Virus record (IMG/VR): IMGVR_UViG_3300042294_001322
Span: 1-40,620 of that record
DNA length: 40,620 nucleotides
Source: a virus
Strand: one strand, 5' to 3'
The stretch's first letter is position 1. Every line of letters starts with the position of its first letter. The notes under the pieces were generated by a model. The model did no database searches, was not told where the DNA came from, and worked only from the letters and a program-made list of their open reading frames with translations. Positions 383 through 40,620 of the stretch are shown piece by piece. A program made the translations under genes and the position numbers.

Positions 383-412
383 TTGACAGGCATGGAAGAG
401 GGGTGCTATCGT
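383..412 (+). promoter_or_regulatory. Rightward early promoter
   Basis: TTGACA (383-388) is followed after 18 bp by TATCGT (407-412), a perfect -35 and a 4/6 -10 of the TAnnnT type. Transcription would begin near 419, leaving a leader of about 55 nt before the ATG at 474. Three further TTGACA boxes in this arm have the same 17-18 bp spacing, which supports the call. Confidence 0.65.
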
Positions 413-473
413 GCTTGCATCGGGATCAACTGCACCAGATGCAGGGGGCGATGATGACACAAAGGGGGCACAC

Positions 474-722
474 ATGAACCGCCTAGACAGGGCAGCAGCG
501 GACATGCTCGCAAGCAGCGACTTTCAGCGCACATGCGACCTGCTACGGGAGGCATCCTACGCGTTGCACCGTGCAGCGAAGGGCATGAACGATGACGCGC
601 TGTATGCCCGCGCGATGGTAGCCGCCACACATGTGGCAGACATGCGCGAAGCCCTAGCGGGGGCGAAGGAGCGCAACGAGCGCGAAAATGAGCACATCCG
701 CGCCGTGCTAGGCAACGCCTAG
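474..722 (+). CDS. Hypothetical early protein, 82 aa
   Basis: First gene of the right arm; family not recognised. The product is Ala/Arg-rich and probably all alpha-helical, with no Cys cluster, signal peptide or membrane segment. The ATG at 474 is preceded by AAAGGGGGCACAC, the same ribosome-binding block used by the next three genes. A GTG at 411 in frame would lie within the -10 of the promoter, so it is rejected. Position right after the first promoter suggests immediate-early expression and perhaps a host-takeover role, which is inference. The stop is followed at once by the next gene's promoter. Confidence 0.7.
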   Translation: MNRLDRAAADMLASSDFQRTCDLLREASYALHRAAKGMNDDALYARAMVAATHVADMREALAGAKERNERENEHIRAVLGNA

Positions 723-731
723 CGGGGGGTA

Positions 732-760
732 TTGACACCCCGCCCCGCTAGGGGTAGGGT
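732..760 (+). promoter_or_regulatory. Promoter of second early gene
   Basis: TTGACA (732-737), a 17-bp spacer and TAGGGT (755-760), preceded by GGGGGTA. The same string GGGGGTATTGACA is found at the 1493 and 3662 promoters. TAGGGT fits the TAnnnT -10 of actinobacterial housekeeping promoters. It lies between the stop at 722 and the start at 818. Confidence 0.65.
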
Positions 761-771
761 ATAGGCAGAGG

Positions 772-817
772 GGGGGGCGGGATCTACCCGCTCCCCCATA
801 GTAAGGAGGCACACAAC
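772..817 (+). promoter_or_regulatory. Leader hairpin and conserved ribosome-binding block
   Basis: A GC hairpin (GCGGG 777-781 with CCCGC 787-791, extended by GGGGG 772-776 and CCCCC 793-797 around a bulged T, loop ATCTA) is followed by GTAAGGAGGCACACAAC and the ATG at 818. The hairpin lies downstream of the promoter, so it sits in the 5' leader. There is no U-run, so it is not a classical terminator. It may stabilise the message, or the C-rich arm may pair with GGAGG. Confidence 0.6.
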
Positions 818-1141
818 ATGACTCGCAAACACTTTGAACACCTAGCCCGCACGCTAGGGGTAGCCGTTGCGGAGGAGGGCGGCGACAACGACAACAAAGC
901 GGCAACATGCGCCGCGTATCGGGTAGCCCTAGCCGTTGCCCGTAGTCTGCACGCTATGAGCGACACCTACGATGAGGAGCGCTTTATGGATGCCGTAGAC
1001 AAGCATGCGCGAAAATGGGCGCAGGTTGTGGCACGCGGCGGGGAGGGTGTAGGATACTCCTCCGCCGCCCGTAGCGGCATGGAGTACGCAATTAAGCAAC
1101 GCGAAGCACAACCCGCCCCATACGCACGGGGCAACGTTTAG
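818..1141 (+). CDS. Hypothetical early protein, 107 aa
   Basis: Not recognised. The translation is soluble and mostly helical, with an acidic GGDNDN stretch near residue 22 and a basic C-terminus; no Cys motif or membrane segment is present. The ATG follows GTAAGGAGG at good distance. It has its own promoter and hairpin leader, so it forms a one-gene or few-gene unit. Leucine is often CTA and CTAG strings are frequent, unlike the left arm. Small size, separate promoter and early position suggest a host-interaction protein, but nothing in the sequence shows what it does. Confidence 0.7.
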   Translation: MTRKHFEHLARTLGVAVAEEGGDNDNKAATCAAYRVALAVARSLHAMSDTYDEERFMDAVDKHARKWAQVVARGGEGVGYSSAARSGMEYAIKQREAQPAPYARGNV

Positions 1142-1153
1142 GGATAGGGCAGA

Positions 1154-1203
1154 GGGGGCGGGATTTACCCGCCCCCCTAGCCCATAGCGAAAGGGGGCAC
1201 ACA
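1154..1203 (+). promoter_or_regulatory. Leader hairpin and conserved ribosome-binding block
   Basis: A perfect 9-bp stem (GGGGGCGGG 1154-1162, CCCGCCCCC 1168-1176, loop ATTTA) is followed by AAAGGGGGCACACA and the ATG at 1204. The upstream words GGATAGGGCAGAG match the leader at 755-770. No TTGACA is present, so this gene probably reads through from 732. The C5 arm could instead pair with the G5 of the ribosome-binding site. Confidence 0.6.
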
Positions 1204-1482
1204 ATGAGCGCAACGGGGTACGGCGTGCGGGGATGCACGGAGGAGGGATGCGGCGCGGTGCTAGTCTATCCCGATGAGGGGAGCACCTGCGCGGAGCATA
1301 CCTGCGAGGGGTGCGGGGCGGCGGTAGAGAATCTCTCCCGCTTCTCGCTCCCGTGGCGGGATGAGCGCGGCACCGTGCACCTAGACAATAGCGCAACCGC
1401 GTGCGTAGATTGCTACGCCGCAACGATGGAAGCACTACCCCTAGGGCGTATGCTACGGGTAGGGTATAGGCGGCGCGGATAG
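1204..1482 (+). CDS. Cys-rich zinc-ribbon-like early protein, 92 aa
   Basis: Family not recognised. Eight Cys lie at about residues 11, 16, 29, 34, 37, 67, 70 and nearby, including CEGC and CVDC knuckles, the pattern of a treble-clef or zinc-ribbon fold. The C-terminus is Arg/Gly-rich (YRRRG) and may touch nucleic acid. It is the third leader-cassette gene. The last codons contain GGGTAGGGTATAGG, a word also present in the leader at 752-766. Zinc-dependent binding to host transcription machinery is a possibility, not shown. Confidence 0.65.
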   Translation: MSATGYGVRGCTEEGCGAVLVYPDEGSTCAEHTCEGCGAAVENLSRFSLPWRDERGTVHLDNSATACVDCYAATMEALPLGRMLRVGYRRRG

Positions 1483-1492
1483 GCGGGGGGTA

Positions 1493-1522
1493 TTGACAAA
1501 CCCGCGCCGCATGGCGTAGGGT
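1493..1522 (+). promoter_or_regulatory. Promoter of fourth early gene
   Basis: TTGACA (1493-1498), an 18-bp spacer and TAGGGT (1517-1522), again preceded by GGGGGTA. It is nearly a copy of the promoter at 732-760 and lies just after the stop at 1482. It should drive the run of overlapping genes from 1570 to about 3665. Confidence 0.65.
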
Positions 1523-1530
1523 AAGGATAG

Positions 1531-1569
1531 GGCGGGGACAATCCCCGCCGATAGTAAGGAGGGCACACA
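1531..1569 (+). promoter_or_regulatory. Leader hairpin and conserved ribosome-binding block
   Basis: GGCGGGGA (1531-1538) and TCCCCGCC (1542-1549) form a perfect 8-bp stem with loop CAA, nine nt downstream of the -10. GATAGTAAGGAGGGCACACA and the ATG at 1570 follow. The stem sequence differs from the other two leaders, yet structure, position and ribosome-binding block are kept, which suggests selection on structure. Confidence 0.6.
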
Positions 1570-1971
1570 ATGGCGACACGATACACAACCAAAGACATTG
1601 CGGGAGCCTTGCGAGGGCTAAACATTACGGCAGGATTCACGGCGGCAGAGGCAGACTCCCCGCTATGGTATACGGACACGGACGGCGAGCGCCGCGCCAT
1701 GGTAGGGCGCTACTATGTGCAGGGCGCCTACGGCGGGTGGAAACTGGTGCAGATTGTGAACGAGGGCGGCGGGGAACGCTCCATAACGGCGGGCTATTGC
1801 CCACGGCGGGAGTTGTACGCCCTGATCCACGCCTACCGCGAGGGTATGGGCGCAGGGGGTGCGGGCGATCCGTACACCATCGCCGCGCTACGGGAGGAAA
1901 TCCCCGCATACCGCGCGGAGCGGGCAGCATACGCGGCGGCGGTAGCGTCGGCGCGGGAGGGGGTACGATGA
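1570..1971 (+). CDS. Hypothetical early protein, 133 aa
   Basis: Not recognised. The N-terminal half has alternating aromatic and charged residues (SPLWYTDTDGERR, then GRYYVQGAYGGWKLVQIVN), suggesting a small beta-sheet domain. The C-terminal third is an Ala/Arg/Glu helix. There are no transmembrane segments. The start follows GTAAGGAGGG with the shared CACACA spacer. The stop overlaps the next gene's start in ATGA (1968-1971), so the two are translationally coupled and begin a long overlapping run. Confidence 0.7.
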   Translation: MATRYTTKDIAGALRGLNITAGFTAAEADSPLWYTDTDGERRAMVGRYYVQGAYGGWKLVQIVNEGGGERSITAGYCPRRELYALIHAYREGMGAGGAGDPYTIAALREEIPAYRAERAAYAAAVASAREGVR

Positions 1972-2324
1972 CGGACGCAAGAGTAGGGCAATGCGCTTGC
2001 GGTAAGGGCGGCGCATGGTACGCAGACAACAACGGCGCACGCTCGGCGCAATGGTATTGCGGGGAGTGCGAGGATCGTCGCGCAGATCTATGGGGCTGCG
2101 CCCGCGTGGTATCGGAGGGGTGCGGATGCGTACCTAGCGATCCGTGCGCGTGCGGATGCGACGGGAGCGGGGTTCTCGTGCAGGACTATGACCCCTGCTC
2201 TAAGTGCGGCACGGAGTACGCAGAAACTAAGGACGTGGCAGGATTCCCGCTCTGCGAGCAGTGCTACAACACGTGGCGCTGCGGATGCGGCACAGGGTGC
2301 GAGAGTTGTAAGGAGGCAGAATAA
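1968..2324 (+). CDS. Very Cys-rich multi-zinc-ribbon protein, 118 aa
   Basis: Eighteen of 118 residues are Cys, arranged as CAC, CGEC, CGC, CACGC, CSKC, CEQC and CGCGTGCESC. This suggests three or four stacked zinc knuckles, with the later part like DnaJ-type or zinc-ribbon repeats. There is no signal peptide, so cytoplasmic zinc binding is more likely than disulphides. It starts at the ATGA overlap with the upstream gene; longer upstream reading in this frame is a shadow. Function unknown; such phage proteins can bind nucleic acid or host RNA polymerase, which is only inference here. Confidence 0.7.
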   Translation: MTDARVGQCACGKGGAWYADNNGARSAQWYCGECEDRRADLWGCARVVSEGCGCVPSDPCACGCDGSGVLVQDYDPCSKCGTEYAETKDVAGFPLCEQCYNTWRCGCGTGCESCKEAE

Positions 2325-2539
2325 TGGCGGCACATGTGGATGATTTTCAGATTGTCGGCGGGGGTAGTGTCTACCTTCTGCTACCGATTACGGGCGAGGC
2401 TCGGCGGTGGATTAGCGACAATCTCGGGGATGACCTATTCTATTTGGGGAACGGTGTTGCGGTGGAGCACCGCTACATCGGGCAGATTGCGGACGGGATT
2501 ATCTCGGACGGTCTGACCATTAGCGAGGGGGTGCAATGA
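2324..2539 (+). CDS. Small conserved-looking phage protein, 71 aa
   Basis: The start overlaps the upstream stop in TAATG. The pattern DFQIVGGGSVYLLLPIT, then aromatic/acidic residues and EHRYIGQIADGIISDGL resembles small proteins I recall from many tailed phages, where function is unknown. Predicted fold is a small alpha/beta domain without membrane segment. The gene is part of the overlapping early run; its stop overlaps the next start. The family resemblance is from memory and would need a profile search. Confidence 0.65.
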   Translation: MAAHVDDFQIVGGGSVYLLLPITGEARRWISDNLGDDLFYLGNGVAVEHRYIGQIADGIISDGLTISEGVQ

Positions 2540-2667
2540 TGGAGTCATACGGACAGCGACGGCGCAAGGAGCGCGAAGAGATGGAGCGATACCATACGGA
2601 TACGGTGCGCATGGTTATCGTCGGGTTCTTATTCATCGTAGCGTTGATTACGGGAGGGTTGGCATAA
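2536..2667 (+). CDS. Small single-pass membrane protein, 43 aa
   Basis: Starts in an ATGA overlap with the gene before and ends in a TAATG overlap with the gene after, so it fits the run exactly. The first 26 residues are strongly charged (RRRKEREEMERYH); the last 17 are a hydrophobic helix (MVIVGFLFIVALITGGLA). This is a C-terminal tail-anchor layout with the charged part in the cytoplasm. Function unknown; small early membrane proteins may alter the host envelope or exclude other phages. Confidence 0.6.
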   Translation: MMESYGQRRRKEREEMERYHTDTVRMVIVGFLFIVALITGGLA

Positions 2668-2957
2668 TGGGATACGAGAAGCAGGACGGCACACCAGTGC
2701 ACACGGGCACGTGGGAGGTGTACGCGGTCTATGAGTTCATCGTGGTAGCCGATGATGCGGGCGCGTATGAAGCATACGATACCGCAGATGAGGCACGCCT
2801 AGCAGCGCGTGCGTGGCTCATTGAGGAGATGGGCGGCACGGACTTTGAGGTGTCCGAGGTGGATGCCATGACGGATGAGCAGGTGCTTGACGCTATCATG
2901 GACTACGACCATGTGGCATTTGCGGATGTGGCGCATCGCCGCATCCTATTTGGATAA
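2667..2957 (+). CDS. Hypothetical acidic protein, 96 aa
   Basis: Not recognised. The protein is acidic and has a beta-rich N-terminal part (TWEVYAVYEFIVVADD) followed by helices with many Asp/Glu/Ala residues (DTADEARLAARAWLIEE, then DEQVLDAIMDYDHV). There are no Cys and no membrane segments. The high negative charge could suggest DNA mimicry, but there is no specific motif for that. TAATG coupling to the upstream gene decides the start. Eight bases separate it from the next gene's ribosome-binding site. Confidence 0.65.
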   Translation: MGYEKQDGTPVHTGTWEVYAVYEFIVVADDAGAYEAYDTADEARLAARAWLIEEMGGTDFEVSEVDAMTDEQVLDAIMDYDHVAFADVAHRRILFG

Positions 2958-2967
2958 GGAGGGGATG

Positions 2968-3213
2968 ATGAAAGGCGACAGGATTATGTGCGGAGAGTGC
3001 AAGAAGGGCGAGATGGTCGCAGACGAGAGGGTGCTCATCGGGTTTGAGATTGTATCGGACGGAAATGGCGGGTACGAGTACACGGGAAATAAGAAGTATG
3101 AAGTACCGAGCGAGGAAGACGACATCATAGTGCGGTGCGTGGAGTGCGGCTATGACATGGTGATTTGGGAACTGAAAGACTTGCAGTCGGTTGATGGGAT
3201 TGTGTACGCATGA
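2968..3213 (+). CDS. Zinc-ribbon-like protein, 81 aa
   Basis: Two Cys pairs, CGEC near residue 8 and CVEC near residue 57, frame a beta-rich middle (LIGFEIVSDGNGGYEYTG), as in zinc-ribbon domains. I chose ATG 2968 over ATG 2965 because GGAGG at 2958-2962 is better spaced. A longer frame from 2875 overlaps the upstream gene and lacks a ribosome site. The stop overlaps the following start in ATGA. Function unknown. Confidence 0.65.
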   Translation: MKGDRIMCGECKKGEMVADERVLIGFEIVSDGNGGYEYTGNKKYEVPSEEDDIIVRCVECGYDMVIWELKDLQSVDGIVYA

Positions 3214-3665
3214 TCGCCGCGTTGTTGGCAGTGTCGCTGCTCACGCAACCGATGCCGCCGCTCACGCCTCACGGAATACCAACGAGCGGCGTAGCCACGT
3301 GGTATGGCGCACGATGCCCGCAAGGTGTGTCGGTGTACGGCAGGACGGATACCTGCACTCCCTATAAGAGTGTCAAGAACGGCGGCAGGGGTGGAGAACT
3401 GGTGCTCTATGCAGCAGTCGGATCATTCACCTACTATGACAAGCCCTATCGGGTGCGCGTATGCCTACGGGGTAGCAGCAGGTGCGTCATCGCTACCGTG
3501 CGAGACTATTGCCATGGAGCATGGCGTGCATTGCGCAAGCCGTGGAACAGCAAGAGCAGAGTCATTGACCTAAGCCCTGCTCTATTTAGGCAACTCGCCC
3601 CGCTATCGCGTGGCGTGGTCTATGTCGAGATAAAAGAGTTAGGAGGTGTACGTCGGGGGTATTGA
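3210..3665 (+). CDS. Exported RlpA-like double-psi beta-barrel protein, 151 aa
   Basis: The hallmark SGVATWYG (26-33), a central VIATVRDY (93-100) and SRVIDLS (116-122) match the RlpA-like double-psi beta-barrel fold, in which RlpA acts on peptidoglycan as a lytic transglycosylase. The usual DRGP is replaced by RDYCHG. Five or six Cys may form disulphides. The N-terminus (MIAALLAVSLLTQ) is a short hydrophobic stretch without a positive start, so export is likely but weakly supported. Length is that of one domain with no SPOR repeat. It begins in an ATGA overlap, and its stop lies in the -35 of the next promoter. Early placement suggests wall remodelling or blocking superinfection rather than final lysis. 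Confidence 0.7.
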   Translation: MIAALLAVSLLTQPMPPLTPHGIPTSGVATWYGARCPQGVSVYGRTDTCTPYKSVKNGGRGGELVLYAAVGSFTYYDKPYRVRVCLRGSSRCVIATVRDYCHGAWRALRKPWNSKSRVIDLSPALFRQLAPLSRGVVYVEIKELGGVRRGY

Positions 3666-3691
3666 CAGATTGATGGGGAGTATTCTAAGGT
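3662..3691 (+). promoter_or_regulatory. Second-block rightward promoter
   Basis: TTGACA (3662-3667), 18-bp spacer, TAAGGT (3686-3691), preceded by GGGGGTA as at the two early promoters. The -35 overlaps the stop codon of the upstream gene. The start at about 3698 gives a short leader before the ATG at 3735. This should drive the genes from 3735 to 7203, including the helicase. Confidence 0.65.
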
Positions 3692-3734
3692 AATGCAGTT
3701 GGCGCTTGCCAACATAGTTAGAGAGGGGAACACA

Positions 3735-3932
3735 ATGAACAAGGAAACAGTATTCGTATACGCAATCGCTACGGGGTGTGGCTTGGCATGGCTATGGGTT
3801 AGCCTCAGTGTTGGTCAGGCGCTGGTCGCAGGACTTGCGGCGCTTGGTCTGACGGTCATCGCATGGCACGCCATTGATACGATTGACGGTGTGGCACGCA
3901 GCCATTACTCGCCAAAGAATAAGGGGGAATAA
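3735..3932 (+). CDS. Two-pass small membrane protein, 65 aa
   Basis: Two hydrophobic segments cover about residues 5-24 and 27-46, with a charged tail ending PKNKGE. The ATG at 3735 follows GAGAGGGGAACACA; an in-frame ATG at 3693 would leave almost no leader after the promoter, so it is rejected. Size and topology recall small holins, but the position at the head of the helicase block, far from the lysis cassette, argues for another role at the membrane. Function not known. Confidence 0.6.
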   Translation: MNKETVFVYAIATGCGLAWLWVSLSVGQALVAGLAALGLTVIAWHAIDTIDGVARSHYSPKNKGE

Positions 3933-3933
3933 C

Positions 3934-4098
3934 ATGGCACAGACAGGTAAGCAACTACGAGCGTCGCTCCTTACGGGTGCGGCTAAGGACTATCAGGATT
4001 GGGAAAGGCAGCGCAGGTTCTGGCAGCGGGTGTCTATCACCTGCGCCATCATCGCCGTCTTCTTTGCAGGCGTAGCAGTAGGGGGTGCGATCTCATGA
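3934..4098 (+). CDS. Small single-pass membrane protein, 54 aa
   Basis: A polar N-terminal region (residues 1-33, with a WERQRRFWQR amphipathic stretch) precedes one C-terminal membrane helix (about 34-53, ending GVAVGGAIS). The start ATG 3934 has AAGGGGG seven bases upstream, inside the end of the previous gene. The stop overlaps the next start in ATGA. It resembles the 43-aa protein at 2536 in layout but not in sequence. Function unknown. Confidence 0.6.
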   Translation: MAQTGKQLRASLLTGAAKDYQDWERQRRFWQRVSITCAIIAVFFAGVAVGGAIS

Positions 4099-4451
4099 GC
4101 GCAGCAGCAGAGGTCTACATCAGCGTAGATACGCCACAGAAAGAAACACGCGAGAAGATTGAGGTGGCGATTGACCAAACCCTTCGGGGTATGGGATTCG
4201 ACATCAGCGCCAACGACCGATACAACATCGGACGATACGACTCTGGCATCATTGTAGAGGCGAAGTCATACAGCGTACCGTGGGAAATCTTTGAGAAGGA
4301 GTGGGCGGAGAAGTTGGTGCGAGAACTCCATGCCATTGACGAAGCCTCGGATGTTGAGTTGTATGTCTACAATCTTGACCGAGAGGCGGATGTGTCAGTC
4401 CTCACGAGAGATTTATTCAGCGAGTCATACGCTGAGAAGGCTCACGCATGA
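4095..4451 (+). CDS. Hypothetical protein, 118 aa
   Basis: Not recognised. It looks like a compact alpha/beta domain: an N-terminal strand (AEVYISV), a helix (TREKIEVAIDQTLRGMG), strands with GIIVEAKSYSV, another long helix and VELYVYNLD. No membrane segment or Cys cluster is present. Start and stop overlap both neighbours in ATGA. It belongs to the helicase block, but no function follows from that. Confidence 0.6.
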   Translation: MSAAAEVYISVDTPQKETREKIEVAIDQTLRGMGFDISANDRYNIGRYDSGIIVEAKSYSVPWEIFEKEWAEKLVRELHAIDEASDVELYVYNLDREADVSVLTRDLFSESYAEKAHA

Positions 4452-4630
4452 CAGACCAGTTGATGTGCGACTGGTGCGGTGCTCCGATTGAGATTCGAGA
4501 GCCATACGCACCGCTAGATTGGGGGAACTTTCACGTCGGCACCTGTGTCGATGAGGCTGCGGCGGATGCCGCATCCTCTACACAGGAAGAGATTGGCGTG
4601 GAGCAAGCACGAGAGGAGGGGAAACTGTGA
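4448..4630 (+). CDS. Small zinc-finger-like protein, 60 aa
   Basis: CDWC at residues 7-10 and HVGTC around 29-33 make a single C-C-H-C site typical of small phage zinc proteins; the second half is an acidic helix. It is ATGA-coupled to the gene before and GTGA-coupled to the gene after. One of at least five small Cys-knuckle proteins in this arm. Function unknown. Confidence 0.6.
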   Translation: MTDQLMCDWCGAPIEIREPYAPLDWGNFHVGTCVDEAAADAASSTQEEIGVEQAREEGKL

Positions 4631-5016
4631 AACTCACAACGGATTACCGATGCCATAACTGCGGCAAGATGTTTGAGGCTGCCGCCTATTACCCAGCCGA
4701 CGCGACGCCGCGCTGCCCCGATGAGGAGCAGCACGATAACCGCGTGAGCACGGATGCTCTGATCGAGAAGATCAAGAAGTCGATGGGAAGATTCTTCACC
4801 ATCGTCTTCACCAAGCGCAGCACGGGAGAGAAGCGCACAATGACCTGCCGATTGGGTGTGAAGAAGCACCTCAAAGGTGGGGCGCGTGCGTATGACCCTG
4901 CGTCCATGAACCTCATGATCGTGTGGGAACCACGCTCGGCTATGTATAAGTCAATCCCAACAGACGCGATTGTCGAAGCGAAGATCGCGGGAAAGGTGTA
5001 TCAGGTGGTCAAGTGA
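4627..5016 (+). CDS. Zinc-ribbon plus SH3-like beta-barrel protein, 129 aa
   Basis: GTG start overlapping the upstream stop (GTGA). Residues 1-35 carry CHNC (9-12) and a third Cys at 30. Residues about 55-128 (FFTIVFTKRSTGEKRTMTCR, then LGVKKHLKGG, YDP and a final GKVYQV) resemble the phage family annotated as SH3 beta-barrel fold proteins, small domains of unknown role that may bind nucleic acid or protein. Joining a zinc ribbon to this domain looks unusual to me. It lies two genes upstream of the helicase coding block, so a replication accessory role is possible. Confidence 0.6.
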   Translation: MKLTTDYRCHNCGKMFEAAAYYPADATPRCPDEEQHDNRVSTDALIEKIKKSMGRFFTIVFTKRSTGEKRTMTCRLGVKKHLKGGARAYDPASMNLMIVWEPRSAMYKSIPTDAIVEAKIAGKVYQVVK

Positions 5017-5084
5017 TAGACGCACTATGGTCTCTCGCCAAGTTGATGCTCCTACTATTTGCGATGGGTTTGGCTACAAAATGA
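5013..5084 (+). CDS. Possible 23-aa hydrophobic peptide
   Basis: A GTG-started frame fits exactly between neighbours: GTGA overlap with the stop at 5014-5016 and ATGA overlap with the start at 5081. The peptide (MIDALWSLAKLMLLLFAMG and four more residues) is one hydrophobic helix. Without it the gap would be 64 bp, unusually large for this tightly packed arm. It may be a real micropeptide or simply a translational bridge. Confidence 0.4.
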   Translation: MIDALWSLAKLMLLLFAMGLATK

Positions 5085-5632
5085 TGACCGAACAGGAGGC
5101 ACTCAGCCTAGTGATGGAGGCACGCAACTCGCCGCATACAAAGGTGAACGATGGCGGCGACCTGCACCCAGATAGGAACGATGGATACATCCAAGACCAA
5201 GAGCCAGAGGGAGTGGTGTGGATCTCCTATCGTCCCAACCCAGTGCTAATTGCTAAGGATACGTACTCCTACCAGCCGTGGGTAGATATGGTCCTAGAGG
5301 CTGAGAATCGTGTATACTTACTTGTCCAGAAGGGGCACGCCCGTGCCCGTGCGGTGGTAGACCTGCACTATGAGATGGCGCTGGCGTGCGATGGCTGCGG
5401 ACTATGGTCGGCAGTCGGCCATAGATCCTCACGGGATAAGTTCTCCACGGAGTACGAGTCTGGTGCGCTTCTTTCTGCCGAGTCATGCGACCCGCAAGCG
5501 GTACACAAACTATTCGGCAAGGAGTTTGACCCAGAGTCAGCCTTCGACCGAGAGGCAGACATAGACTACGGTGAAGATTCATCGCAGGCAAGAAGGGGGA
5601 GTAGCAATGCGGCAACCGCCAAGAAGCGTTGA
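5081..5632 (+). CDS. Hypothetical protein, 183 aa
   Basis: Not recognised. I start it at ATG 5081 (adjacent ATG 5084); an upstream frame from 4970 only overlaps the previous genes. The protein has a helical N-terminus, a strand-rich middle (VVWISYRPNPVLIAK, then NRVYLLVQKGHARARAVVDL), a lone CDGC near residue 104 and an acidic, disordered C-terminus ending in a basic tail. Its last 26 bases overlap the helicase start. The context suggests a replication partner such as a helicase loader, but no loader motif (Walker A) is present. Confidence 0.55.
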   Translation: MMTEQEALSLVMEARNSPHTKVNDGGDLHPDRNDGYIQDQEPEGVVWISYRPNPVLIAKDTYSYQPWVDMVLEAENRVYLLVQKGHARARAVVDLHYEMALACDGCGLWSAVGHRSSRDKFSTEYESGALLSAESCDPQAVHKLFGKEFDPESAFDREADIDYGEDSSQARRGSSNAATAKKR

Positions 5633-6917
5633 GGCAGAGGTTGGACTGATCGGCTCGTGCTTGATTGACGCAGACGCTGCGTCGCTGGCATCGGACATCA
5701 CGCCAGCGGACTTCTCCAAGCCGAGCAATGGCTACGTATGGAAGGCAATCCTTGCCTTGCAGCAGCGTGGCGATGTGCTTGACGTGGTGTCAGTCGGTGA
5801 GGAACTCGCCCGCAGTGGTCATCTAGATGCCGTCGGTGGCTATGCGTGCCTCTCTGACTTCATGGCGATGACCCCGACCAGCGCCAACGCCAGCCAGTAC
5901 GCCGACTCAGTGCGGACGAAGGCCACGCTGCGCCGCATCCTTGCTGCGGCAAGCCGCATCTCGGAGATTGCCTACGCTGACCCAGCCGATGCGAATGAGG
6001 CACTCGACAAGGCAGAGGCGGAGATCTATGCCGTCGCTCGCTCGGTCAAGAAGTCAGACTTTGCAGGGATGTCATCGCTCGTGCAGGATGCAGTCTCTAA
6101 GTTAGATTGGATTCGGCACAACAAGGGCAGTGGTAGGGGTGTGGGGTCTGGGCTTGCCGCCCTTGATGAGATGACTGGGGGCTGGCAGCAGTCCGACCTC
6201 ACCATCTTGGCGGCTCGACCGAGCGTGGGCAAGACAGCGATGGCGCTCAACATCGCGCAGCACGCAGCCATCAAAGAGGGTAAGCGAGTAGCAATCTTCT
6301 CGCTAGAGATGAGCAAGGATCAGTTGGCTACCCGCCTCATGGCTGGTGTGTCTGGCGTAGACATCTTCCGTATCCGACGCGGCGACGTTGAGGGTATGGA
6401 CTTGGCTCGCATCGCAGCAGCCGTGCATCATCTAGAGAGCGCGAGTATCTTCATCGACGATAGCCCAGTCGCATCACCCGTAGACCTACGCTCGAAGGCG
6501 CGTCGGCTTGCGGCAGATGGCGGACTTGACCTCATCGTCGTGGACTACTTGCAACTGATGATGCCTACGAAGCAGACGAAGGAGGGCAACCGCGTGGTCG
6601 AGACCTCCGACATCAGCCGTGGGCTGAAGGCAATGGCAAGGGAACTCAACGTTCCAGTCATTGCGCTCTCGCAGTTGAGCCGAGCAGCCGAGCATAGAGA
6701 AGGAGGCCAGCCACGATTGGCTGACCTCAGAGACTCTGGTGCGATTGAGCAGGACGCTGACCTAGTGATGCTGCTTTGGCGCCCGAACGGACAGGAGCAT
6801 GGGCAGGCACGGGAGCGAGTGAAGTTGTCGCTGTCGAAGCATCGTAATGGTCCGACTGGAGAGATTGATTTGGTCTTCGTCAAGGCGACGACGACCTTTA
6901 GCGAAGGAGACTTGTAA
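5607..6917 (+). CDS. dnaB: DnaB-type replicative helicase, 436 aa
   Basis: Hexameric 5'-3' helicase that unwinds the replication fork. The N-terminal helical domain (about 1-115, starting RSVEAEVGLIGSCL) is followed by a RecA-like core: Walker A ARPSVGKTA (203-211), FSLEMS (231-236), Walker B LIVVDYLQLM (309-318), SQLSR (355-359), DLRDSGAIEQDAD (373-385) and the arginine-finger region KHRNGPTG (411-418). Length is close to bacterial DnaB. I start at ATG 5607 because AAGGGGGAG lies just upstream; ATG 5571 lacks a site. It is the only clear replication enzyme; no primase or polymerase gene is seen, so the host replisome is probably recruited. Confidence 0.93.
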   Translation: MRQPPRSVEAEVGLIGSCLIDADAASLASDITPADFSKPSNGYVWKAILALQQRGDVLDVVSVGEELARSGHLDAVGGYACLSDFMAMTPTSANASQYADSVRTKATLRRILAAASRISEIAYADPADANEALDKAEAEIYAVARSVKKSDFAGMSSLVQDAVSKLDWIRHNKGSGRGVGSGLAALDEMTGGWQQSDLTILAARPSVGKTAMALNIAQHAAIKEGKRVAIFSLEMSKDQLATRLMAGVSGVDIFRIRRGDVEGMDLARIAAAVHHLESASIFIDDSPVASPVDLRSKARRLAADGGLDLIVVDYLQLMMPTKQTKEGNRVVETSDISRGLKAMARELNVPVIALSQLSRAAEHREGGQPRLADLRDSGAIEQDADLVMLLWRPNGQEHGQARERVKLSLSKHRNGPTGEIDLVFVKATTTFSEGDL

Positions 6918-6918
6918 G

Positions 6919-7203
6919 ATGTTTGAGGGATTGAAGGCAGACGGATTCGATGACTGTGTGGTCGGCGTTGGGCGACAGTTCAACAATGACGTCGTGGTCT
7001 ATGATCAGGACAGGATCATCAAGAAGTTAGCCGATGACTTCACTGAAGGGTGTGAGGATGCGCACGATAGGGACTCAGAGTGCGACCACTACTCAGAGGC
7101 AGAGGAGTACTTCGAGTTCAACATCGTTGGCGGATACGTCGGTGTGAACACGCCAGTCTATATTCAACTCGGCTCACTTGACGAACTCATTCAAGAAGAG
7201 TAA
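6919..7203 (+). CDS. Hypothetical acidic protein, 94 aa
   Basis: Last gene of the right arm, one base after the helicase stop, with GAAGGAGA as ribosome site; an in-frame ATG at 6847 inside the helicase is rejected. The protein is acidic and rich in Asp/Glu (ADDFTEGCEDAHDRDSECDHYSEAEEYFEF) with strands at both ends (VVGVGRQFNNDVVVYD, then VGGYVGVNTPVYIQLG). Family not recognised. The charge could suit binding to a basic or DNA-binding partner. Confidence 0.65.
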   Translation: MFEGLKADGFDDCVVGVGRQFNNDVVVYDQDRIIKKLADDFTEGCEDAHDRDSECDHYSEAEEYFEFNIVGGYVGVNTPVYIQLGSLDELIQEE

Positions 7204-7281: not shown

Positions 7282-7477
7282 CACAGGCTGGGCAACTACC
7301 AAAATACTTACCAGCGTGGTCGTGCATGGCAGACAGGGGCAGGTCGGACGGGATCTCTCGACCGACAAGGGTTTCGTAGATGATGCCATTGTCTCGGCAC
7401 CATTGGCGCAGGGACTTGCCATCCGCTATGGCCTTAGCGCGGAATAGTTCCCTGATCTGTTCGTCCTGCTCGCTCAC
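7271..7477 (-). CDS. Small hypothetical protein with HTH-like segment, 68 aa
   Basis: Last gene of the left arm. GTG start; GGAG lies about ten bases upstream. It overlaps the gene before by 44 bases. Residues 22-42 (LRQWCRDNGIIYETLVGRE) look like a helix-turn-helix, and the C-terminus has CPAC. The stop codon lies in the stem of the convergent terminator. Family not recognised; a small DNA-binding protein is possible. Confidence 0.5.
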   Translation of the reverse strand: MSEQDEQIRELFRAKAIADGKSLRQWCRDNGIIYETLVGREIPSDLPLSAMHDHAGKYFGSCPACEKE

Positions 7478-40324: not shown

Positions 40325-40389
40325 TCTGGCCTAGCGGCCAGAGCGAACTCAAATTAAGTGAGAGACCGTTCTCTGGGAGGGTGAGTTCG
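40325..40389 (-). promoter_or_regulatory. Structured leader of the leftward transcript
   Basis: Two structures lie just upstream of the first leftward gene: a 7-bp stem with loop TAGC (40325-40342) and a nested stem formed by 8-bp outer arms (40344-40351, 40382-40389) and 5-bp inner arms (40361-40365, 40370-40374). Both would be in the 5' untranslated RNA. They could protect the long message or act as an antitermination site. Confidence 0.45.
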
Positions 40390-40593: not shown

Positions 40594-40620
40594 AGACCAA
40601 ACGCCCACCCCCTCAGACAT
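40594..40620. repeat. Terminal direct repeat, right copy
   Basis: Identical to 1-27. It shows that the contig closes on itself; one copy should be removed when the genome is drawn as a circle. Confidence 0.95.

Follow-up and report, generated by a model that had tools for sequence, protein, structure and literature searches.

The window analyzed here comprises 40,620 bases, the sequence of one IMG/VR virus record, and derives from an uncultivated freshwater phage. A 27-base direct repeat occurs at both termini (positions 1 to 27 and 40594 to 40620), so the window is probably a complete genome, and the record probably represents a circular or circularly permuted molecule. Genes are divided between one block on the plus strand, presumably early by analogy and referred to as such below, and a minus-strand remainder that includes the structural genes (Table 1). 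We found no close cultured relative: DNA comparisons yielded only short, weak matches, and the terminase had none. At the DNA level, the helicase weakly matched one already known from a phage, and it was also matched in relatives.

In a quickly built tree, the DnaB helicase (window positions 5607 to 6917) and its phage homologs form a group sister to Chloroflexota contigs (L212 to L216), with a support of 99 for the joint group and long phage branches. This grouping, the sole line of evidence on the question, does not support the actinobacterial host envisaged in the first-pass annotation and suggests that the host is more likely to belong to the Chloroflexota than to the Actinobacteria. Freshwater Chloroflexota such as Limnocylindria (PMC6169038) are plausible hosts, a suggestion offered as a lead and not as proof.

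Four early genes in the window are each preceded by a cassette in which a GC hairpin is followed by a ribosome site and the ATG, and three of these four cassettes (B to E) also carry a TTGACA promoter (Table 1). The first-pass annotation had described a shared leader plan before three early genes; the plan is real and larger than stated. Its claim that GGGGGTATTGACA and a TAGGGT −10 element occur in two of three leaders holds exactly at positions 725 and 1486 but missed a third copy of GGGGGTATTGACA at 3655, which opens cassette E (3655 to 3734). The first gene (ATG 474), credited with the ribosome block only, also has a promoter and a weak 5-bp hairpin of its own. A ribosome block ending in CACACA precedes the ATG codons at 474, 818, 1204, and 1570. 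The leader of cassette C (1142 to 1203) contains no convincing promoter (score of 7.0 versus 12 for the others). Relative L006 retains hairpin D, as does L025 with a G-U pair. Hairpin E, with 6 bp, is weak, and the stability of its leader as a whole is unremarkable (z = −0.23).

Table 1. Features of the window. P values compare the longest stem with dinucleotide shuffles.
Feature	Positions	Strand	Details
Plus-strand gene block	474-7200	+	Includes DnaB-like helicase (5607-6917)
Remaining genes	outside 474-7200	−	Terminase, portal, major head protein, tail genes
Leader, first gene	383-473	+	TTGACA 383-388, TATCGT 407-412, ribosome block 462-473, ATG 474
Weak 5-bp hairpin, first-gene leader	430-444	+	CTGCA-CCAGA-TGCAG; P = 0.15; letter-identical in L006
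Promoter, cassette B	725-760	+	GGGGGTATTGACA, spacer 17, TAGGGT 755-760
Hairpin B	771-797	+	11 bp, one G-U, loop ATCTA; first pair after 10 nt from −10; P = 0.0025
Ribosome site, cassette B	803-817	+	AAGGAGG and CACACAAC before ATG 818
Hairpin C	1147-1183	+	Inner 9 bp 1154-1176; outer helix GGGC/GCCC 1147-1150/1180-1183; P = 0.005
Ribosome site, cassette C	1191-1203	+	AAGGGGG-CACACA before ATG 1204
Promoter, cassette D	1486-1522	+	GGGGGTATTGACA, spacer 18, TAGGGT 1517-1522
Hairpin D	1531-1549	+	8 bp, GGCGGGG-ACAAT-CCCCGCC; first pair after 8 nt from −10; P = 0.0025
Ribosome site, cassette D	1556-1569	+	AAGGAGGG-CACACA before ATG 1570
Promoter, cassette E	3655-3691	+	GGGGGTATTGACA, spacer 18, TAAGGT 3686-3691
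Hairpin E	3698-3713	+	6 bp, GTTGGC-GCTT-GCCAAC; sequence unrelated to B-D; P = 0.025
Ribosome site, cassette E	3721-3734	+	GAGAGGGGAACACA region before ATG 3735

The element GGGGGTATTGACA with a downstream TANNNT was tried as a family marker and rejected because it matched unrelated contigs that lack the hairpins. The combination occurs in at least 120 IMG/VR stretches, and a strong hairpin lay just after it in 5 of 120 examined.

Relatives were gathered by a helicase search. Helicase identity was 98 to 100% in L004 to L009, L021, L024, and L026, about 80 to 84% in L010 to L020, L022, and L023, 71% in L025, and lower in further contigs; searches with the proteins encoded at window positions 3210 to 3665 and 1570 to 1971 yielded few new contigs. 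The near relatives contain dozens more cassettes, so that in this phage group the majority of early genes carry a short leader with a hairpin located at the predicted start of the message. A scan of the relatives for a stem, ribosome site, and start codon matched at 235 early-strand places and at 67 on the opposite strand; under stricter rules, cassette density was 0.29 per kb for the early strand versus 0.015 for the other. The corresponding densities were 0.021 and 0.031 per kb in G/C-rich unrelated viral contigs and 0.013 in Chloroflexota contigs. The cassettes are thus lineage-specific.

Near-identical cassettes also occur within one genome. Between genomes, positions 515 to 905 of L006 and 725 to 1206 of the window carry near-identical cassettes before nonequivalent genes: in L006, the gene driven by cassette B is a different one, and cassette C drives the equivalent of the window gene at 818. 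Cassettes and genes therefore reassort.

Stems beat dinucleotide shuffles (P < 0.05) in 51 of 56 leaders; most of these leaders were picked because their downstream genes are homologous and the others on account of a hairpin noticed beforehand, and since the set is partly selected and its rows are related, the combined P value is not literal. Whole-leader folding energy, a weaker test than the longest stem, gave a median z of −1.37 for early leaders and about −0.30 for others. Stem sequences are exchanged before equivalent genes or in the equivalent slot. The slot occupied by GTTGGC/GCCAAC before the window gene at 3735 holds CTGGC/GCCAG in L006, CGTGCGC/GCGCACG in L011, CTGCGGG/CCCGCAG in L016, and GACGCTG/CAGCGTC in L018, and quite different stems fill it in L010, L011, L016, L018, L019, and L023. 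Across 24 distinct stems, own arms pair at 99% of positions and swapped arms at 54%, with the observed value reached by 0 of 10,000 permutations, a result that demonstrates diversity under pairing rather than the existence of the stems, because they were picked as stems.

Covariation was assessed in column alignments. A MAFFT alignment of all equivalents of leader E (A1) was dropped, as stems that start at different distances put the arms in different columns, and tighter sets (A3 and A4) were used; A4 was too uniform to be informative (84 of 500 shuffles). Among ten cassettes of an extended type, related to hairpin C, 97.9% of alignment cells are paired, and both partners have changed in 6 of the 14 pairs. 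The covariation score was reached by 0 of 500 shuffles, and sliding the partner by one column lowered pairing to 53 to 62%. The first-pass annotation had taken a changed stem with retained pairing as a sign of selection on structure and had proposed a search for compensatory changes in related genomes; the relatives contain such changes and strongly support selection on the RNA structure.

These data also bear on the possibility that the inverted repeat is a DNA operator, bound over the start site by a phage repressor or activator, as has been proposed for the extended start-associated sequences (ESAS) of cluster K mycobacteriophages. Such an operator could account for inverted repeats near promoters and for the near-identical cassettes of a single genome, but equivalent genes have wholly different yet paired stems, G-U pairs are tolerated, some hairpins lack a promoter, and hammerhead RNAs (described below) occupy the same slot. 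We consider it very improbable. Recognition of the hairpins by a phage RNA-binding protein that coordinates early translation would likewise explain their repetition before many early genes, along with the recurring loops ACAAT, AGAAT, and ATCTA. It is a very unlikely role for hairpins that vary so widely, also within one genome, in stem sequence, stem length (6 to 12 bp), and loop (3 to 7 nt).

The likeness to SAS/ESAS drawn in the first-pass annotation stands for the layout: in both systems a promoter and inverted repeats recur just upstream of the start codons of many nonstructural genes. It fails in the particulars. ESAS are 17-bp inverted repeats with one consensus per subcluster, and they contain a SigA-like promoter (PMC3203893, PMC11373665), whereas the repeats described here begin 2 to 12 nt after the −10 element, leave the promoter outside, and vary in sequence between leaders. 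Departures in ESAS arms do not support RNA pairing (PMC3203893); here, in contrast, the arms pair as RNA (98% of cells, with double changes in 6 of 14 pairs). The 13-bp SAS motif GGGATAGGAGCCC, which lies by start codons in cluster K, had 0 matches in the window at up to 2 mismatches, and this absence, together with the different layout, rules out membership in SAS/ESAS.

The hairpins are also constrained in position. A good promoter with a −10 element ending 2 to 12 nt before the first base pair is present in 33 of 50 distinct cassettes, compared with 5% of random positions. Because transcription usually starts about 7 nt after the −10 element, the hairpin begins at or next to the predicted +1; the leader from this predicted +1 measures 33 to 57 nt, and the gap between stem and ribosome site is 4 to 17 nt. 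Stem-loops at the 5′ terminus stabilize mRNA in Escherichia coli and Bacillus subtilis (reviewed in PMC3997798), and the predicted +1 places the hairpin at the site where a stem-loop protects bacterial mRNA (PMC3997798). Some hairpins, for example, that at 1154 to 1176, have neither a clear promoter nor a ribozyme to set a 5′ end and would therefore be internal unless the RNA is processed. In the extended type, the outer helix would start upstream of the predicted +1 and would thus form only in read-through RNA.

Such GC-rich intergenic hairpins, some of them promoterless, might be read as terminators or RNase III processing sites. We regard this as extremely unlikely, since the hairpins lack a U-tract and are absent from the sites of a terminator scan, those of promoter-bearing cassettes lie downstream of the promoter, and stems of 6 to 12 bp are short for RNase III.

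When 41 leaders were folded together with 40 nt of coding sequence, the hairpin on average kept the ribosome site open: predicted openness was 0.63 for native leaders, fell to 0.51 when the 5′ arm was shuffled, and to 0.37 when A was substituted throughout that arm. The first-pass suggestion that the C-rich arm masks the ribosome site is thus not supported, the site being more open in predicted folds when the hairpin forms; moreover, several hairpins, GTTGGC/GCCAAC and CGTGCGC/GCGCACG among them, have no arm able to pair with the Shine-Dalgarno sequence. An RNA switch in which the C-rich arm pairs alternately with the G-rich ribosome site would suit the many leaders that combine a C-rich 3′ arm with such a site. 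We nonetheless find it highly doubtful, as the hairpin is part of the predicted minimum-energy fold in 4 of 4 window leaders, the ribosome site closes, on average, when the 5′ arm is removed, several hairpins lack an arm of this kind, and Rfam recognized no catalogued riboswitch (no match in the window at the gathering threshold and nothing relevant at a relaxed one).

More serious is the view that the hairpin acts purely as a translation insulator, freeing the ribosome site from pairing with upstream sequence or with the arm, with no part in mRNA stability. The openness values agree with it, as do the promoterless hairpins found at the same place before the ribosome site, and the hairpin of the synthetic insulator RiboJ has been suggested to expose the ribosome site (PMC6206723). 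Hairpins without a masking arm, such as the two named above, argue against it, as does the additional link of hairpin position to the predicted +1 in most cassettes. We judge this view unlikely, while giving it appreciable weight.

Two sister phages, L018 and L025, carry a second kind of element in the same slot. Rfam identified five matches to type II hammerheads (Hammerhead_II) above the cutoff, at 7332 to 7395 (60.3 bits) and 6745 to 6822 (40.2 bits) in L018 and at 5296 to 5357, 4974 to 5044, and 5659 to 5721 (41 to 44 bits) in L025; a weaker match before the L025 gene at 4706 (29.6 bits) fell below the cutoff. The contig listed as L085 is the same as L018. By the same Rfam search, the type II hammerhead (GAAAC, GUH, CUGAUGA, and stems I to III) is absent from the window and the other relatives tested. 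The matches flank single early genes, each falling in the gap that separates an early gene's stop codon from the ribosome site of the gene that follows. All five overlap the TAG stop codon of the upstream gene. In the same operons, promoter-hairpin cassettes precede the L025 genes at 6195 and 7173 and the L018 gene at 6534, and a promoterless hairpin precedes the L018 gene at 7649. Predicted cleavage after GUH would leave a message with a 5′-OH whose first base lies in or next to stem I, and the 5′ ends of the predicted products fall 45 to 59 nt before the start codon, near the geometry of the promoter-hairpin leaders.

Hammerheads are known to flank single genes in prophages, and one lies 13 nt upstream of an early helicase of haloviruses; the role of phage hammerheads before genes was left open at their description (Perreault 2011, PMC3088659). 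The L018 and L025 matches likewise flank single early genes, but they differ from the described examples in alternating with promoter-hairpin cassettes in one operon, and the window has none. More broadly, in IMG/VR, a ribosome site and start codon follow within 90 nt at 95 of 139 sites with the type II hammerhead pattern versus 88 of 695 random sites (13%). The pattern sites belong to contigs L292 to L411, and where a ribosome site and start codon follow, they mostly do so 13 to 45 nt from the core.

Two unlike devices thus share one slot, and both are predicted to yield a message that opens with a hairpin, which argues that the 5′-terminal hairpin is the product under selection. We therefore consider it likely that the cassettes are a device for giving each early message a 5′-terminal hairpin that protects against decay and insulates the ribosome site. 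Each message would open with a stable hairpin, separated by an open linker from a strong ribosome site and its start codon. In most cassettes, a sigma70-like promoter would set the hairpin at about the predicted +1, and in L018 and L025 a putative self-cleaving hammerhead in the same slot would set it at the 5′ end. Most probably, the hairpin conceals the 5′ terminus of the message from 5′-end-dependent decay (RppH together with RNase E or RNase J) and, in G/C-rich leaders, also sequesters a C-rich arm, keeping it from pairing with the ribosome site. The outcome would be constant, strong, and context-independent expression of each small early gene.

A comparable order of phage promoter, stem-loop at +1, and strong ribosome site is found in the T7 gene 10 leader, which is unlike the cassettes in being a single leader that serves a late gene and is transcribed by the phage RNA polymerase. 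The 5′-terminal stem-loops of E. coli papA and others and of B. subtilis aprE (PMC3997798) likewise combine a GC hairpin of free stem sequence, an open linker, and a ribosome site, with the hairpin here lying at the predicted 5′ end; unlike them, the present cassette is repeated before many small early genes of one phage. RiboJ, a hammerhead plus a hairpin before the ribosome site, raised mRNA about 2-fold and protein 2- to 10-fold, an effect that its authors ascribed to the terminal hairpin (stability) and the exposed ribosome site (PMC6206723). The phage leaders resemble it in placing a 5′ hairpin on the message ahead of the ribosome site, by predicted hammerhead cleavage in L018 and L025. 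They differ in being natural and viral, in having the hairpin set by the promoter in the window, and in using a type II ribozyme motif in L018 and L025.

A broader and more tentative proposition, which we hold as a real possibility without regarding it as likely, is that 5′-hairpin capping extends to nearly every early message across the lineage, with promoter and type II hammerhead interchangeable in the slot. If so, it would provide a general and testable reason for hammerhead ribozymes sitting just before the start codons of phage genes, and a natural counterpart of the synthetic RiboJ insulator that phages make in two ways. Expression work in G/C-rich bacteria can also draw on the cassettes as ready-made natural leaders, and the rule that structure rather than sequence is conserved offers a means of finding early genes in uncultivated phages.

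Contig L144, which entered the analysis through the promoter pattern only, has TTGACA and TAGAAT at 488 to 523 and then, after 3 nt, a hairpin of 9 bp (GGTACCGGTTCGAACCGGTACC) ahead of a start codon; this may be an instance of the same plan in another phage. In the window, the leader of the first late gene (minus strand) contains a hairpin, TCTGGCC-GCTA-GGCCAGA, at 40325 to 40342, with no obvious promoter adjoining; L008 and L021 share it, and L018 has it with a T-A pair exchanged for C-G. The protein encoded at 3210 to 3665 begins with a hydrophobic stretch and matches a double-psi beta-barrel (DPBB_1) at a score slightly below the Pfam cutoff; it is an unusual product for an early region and could act on the cell wall. 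Beside long G runs in the divergent intergenic region, positions 142 to 219 contain a 34-bp direct repeat (beginning CCTCTGACACAACCCGTGCCACA), which could mark an origin or control region.
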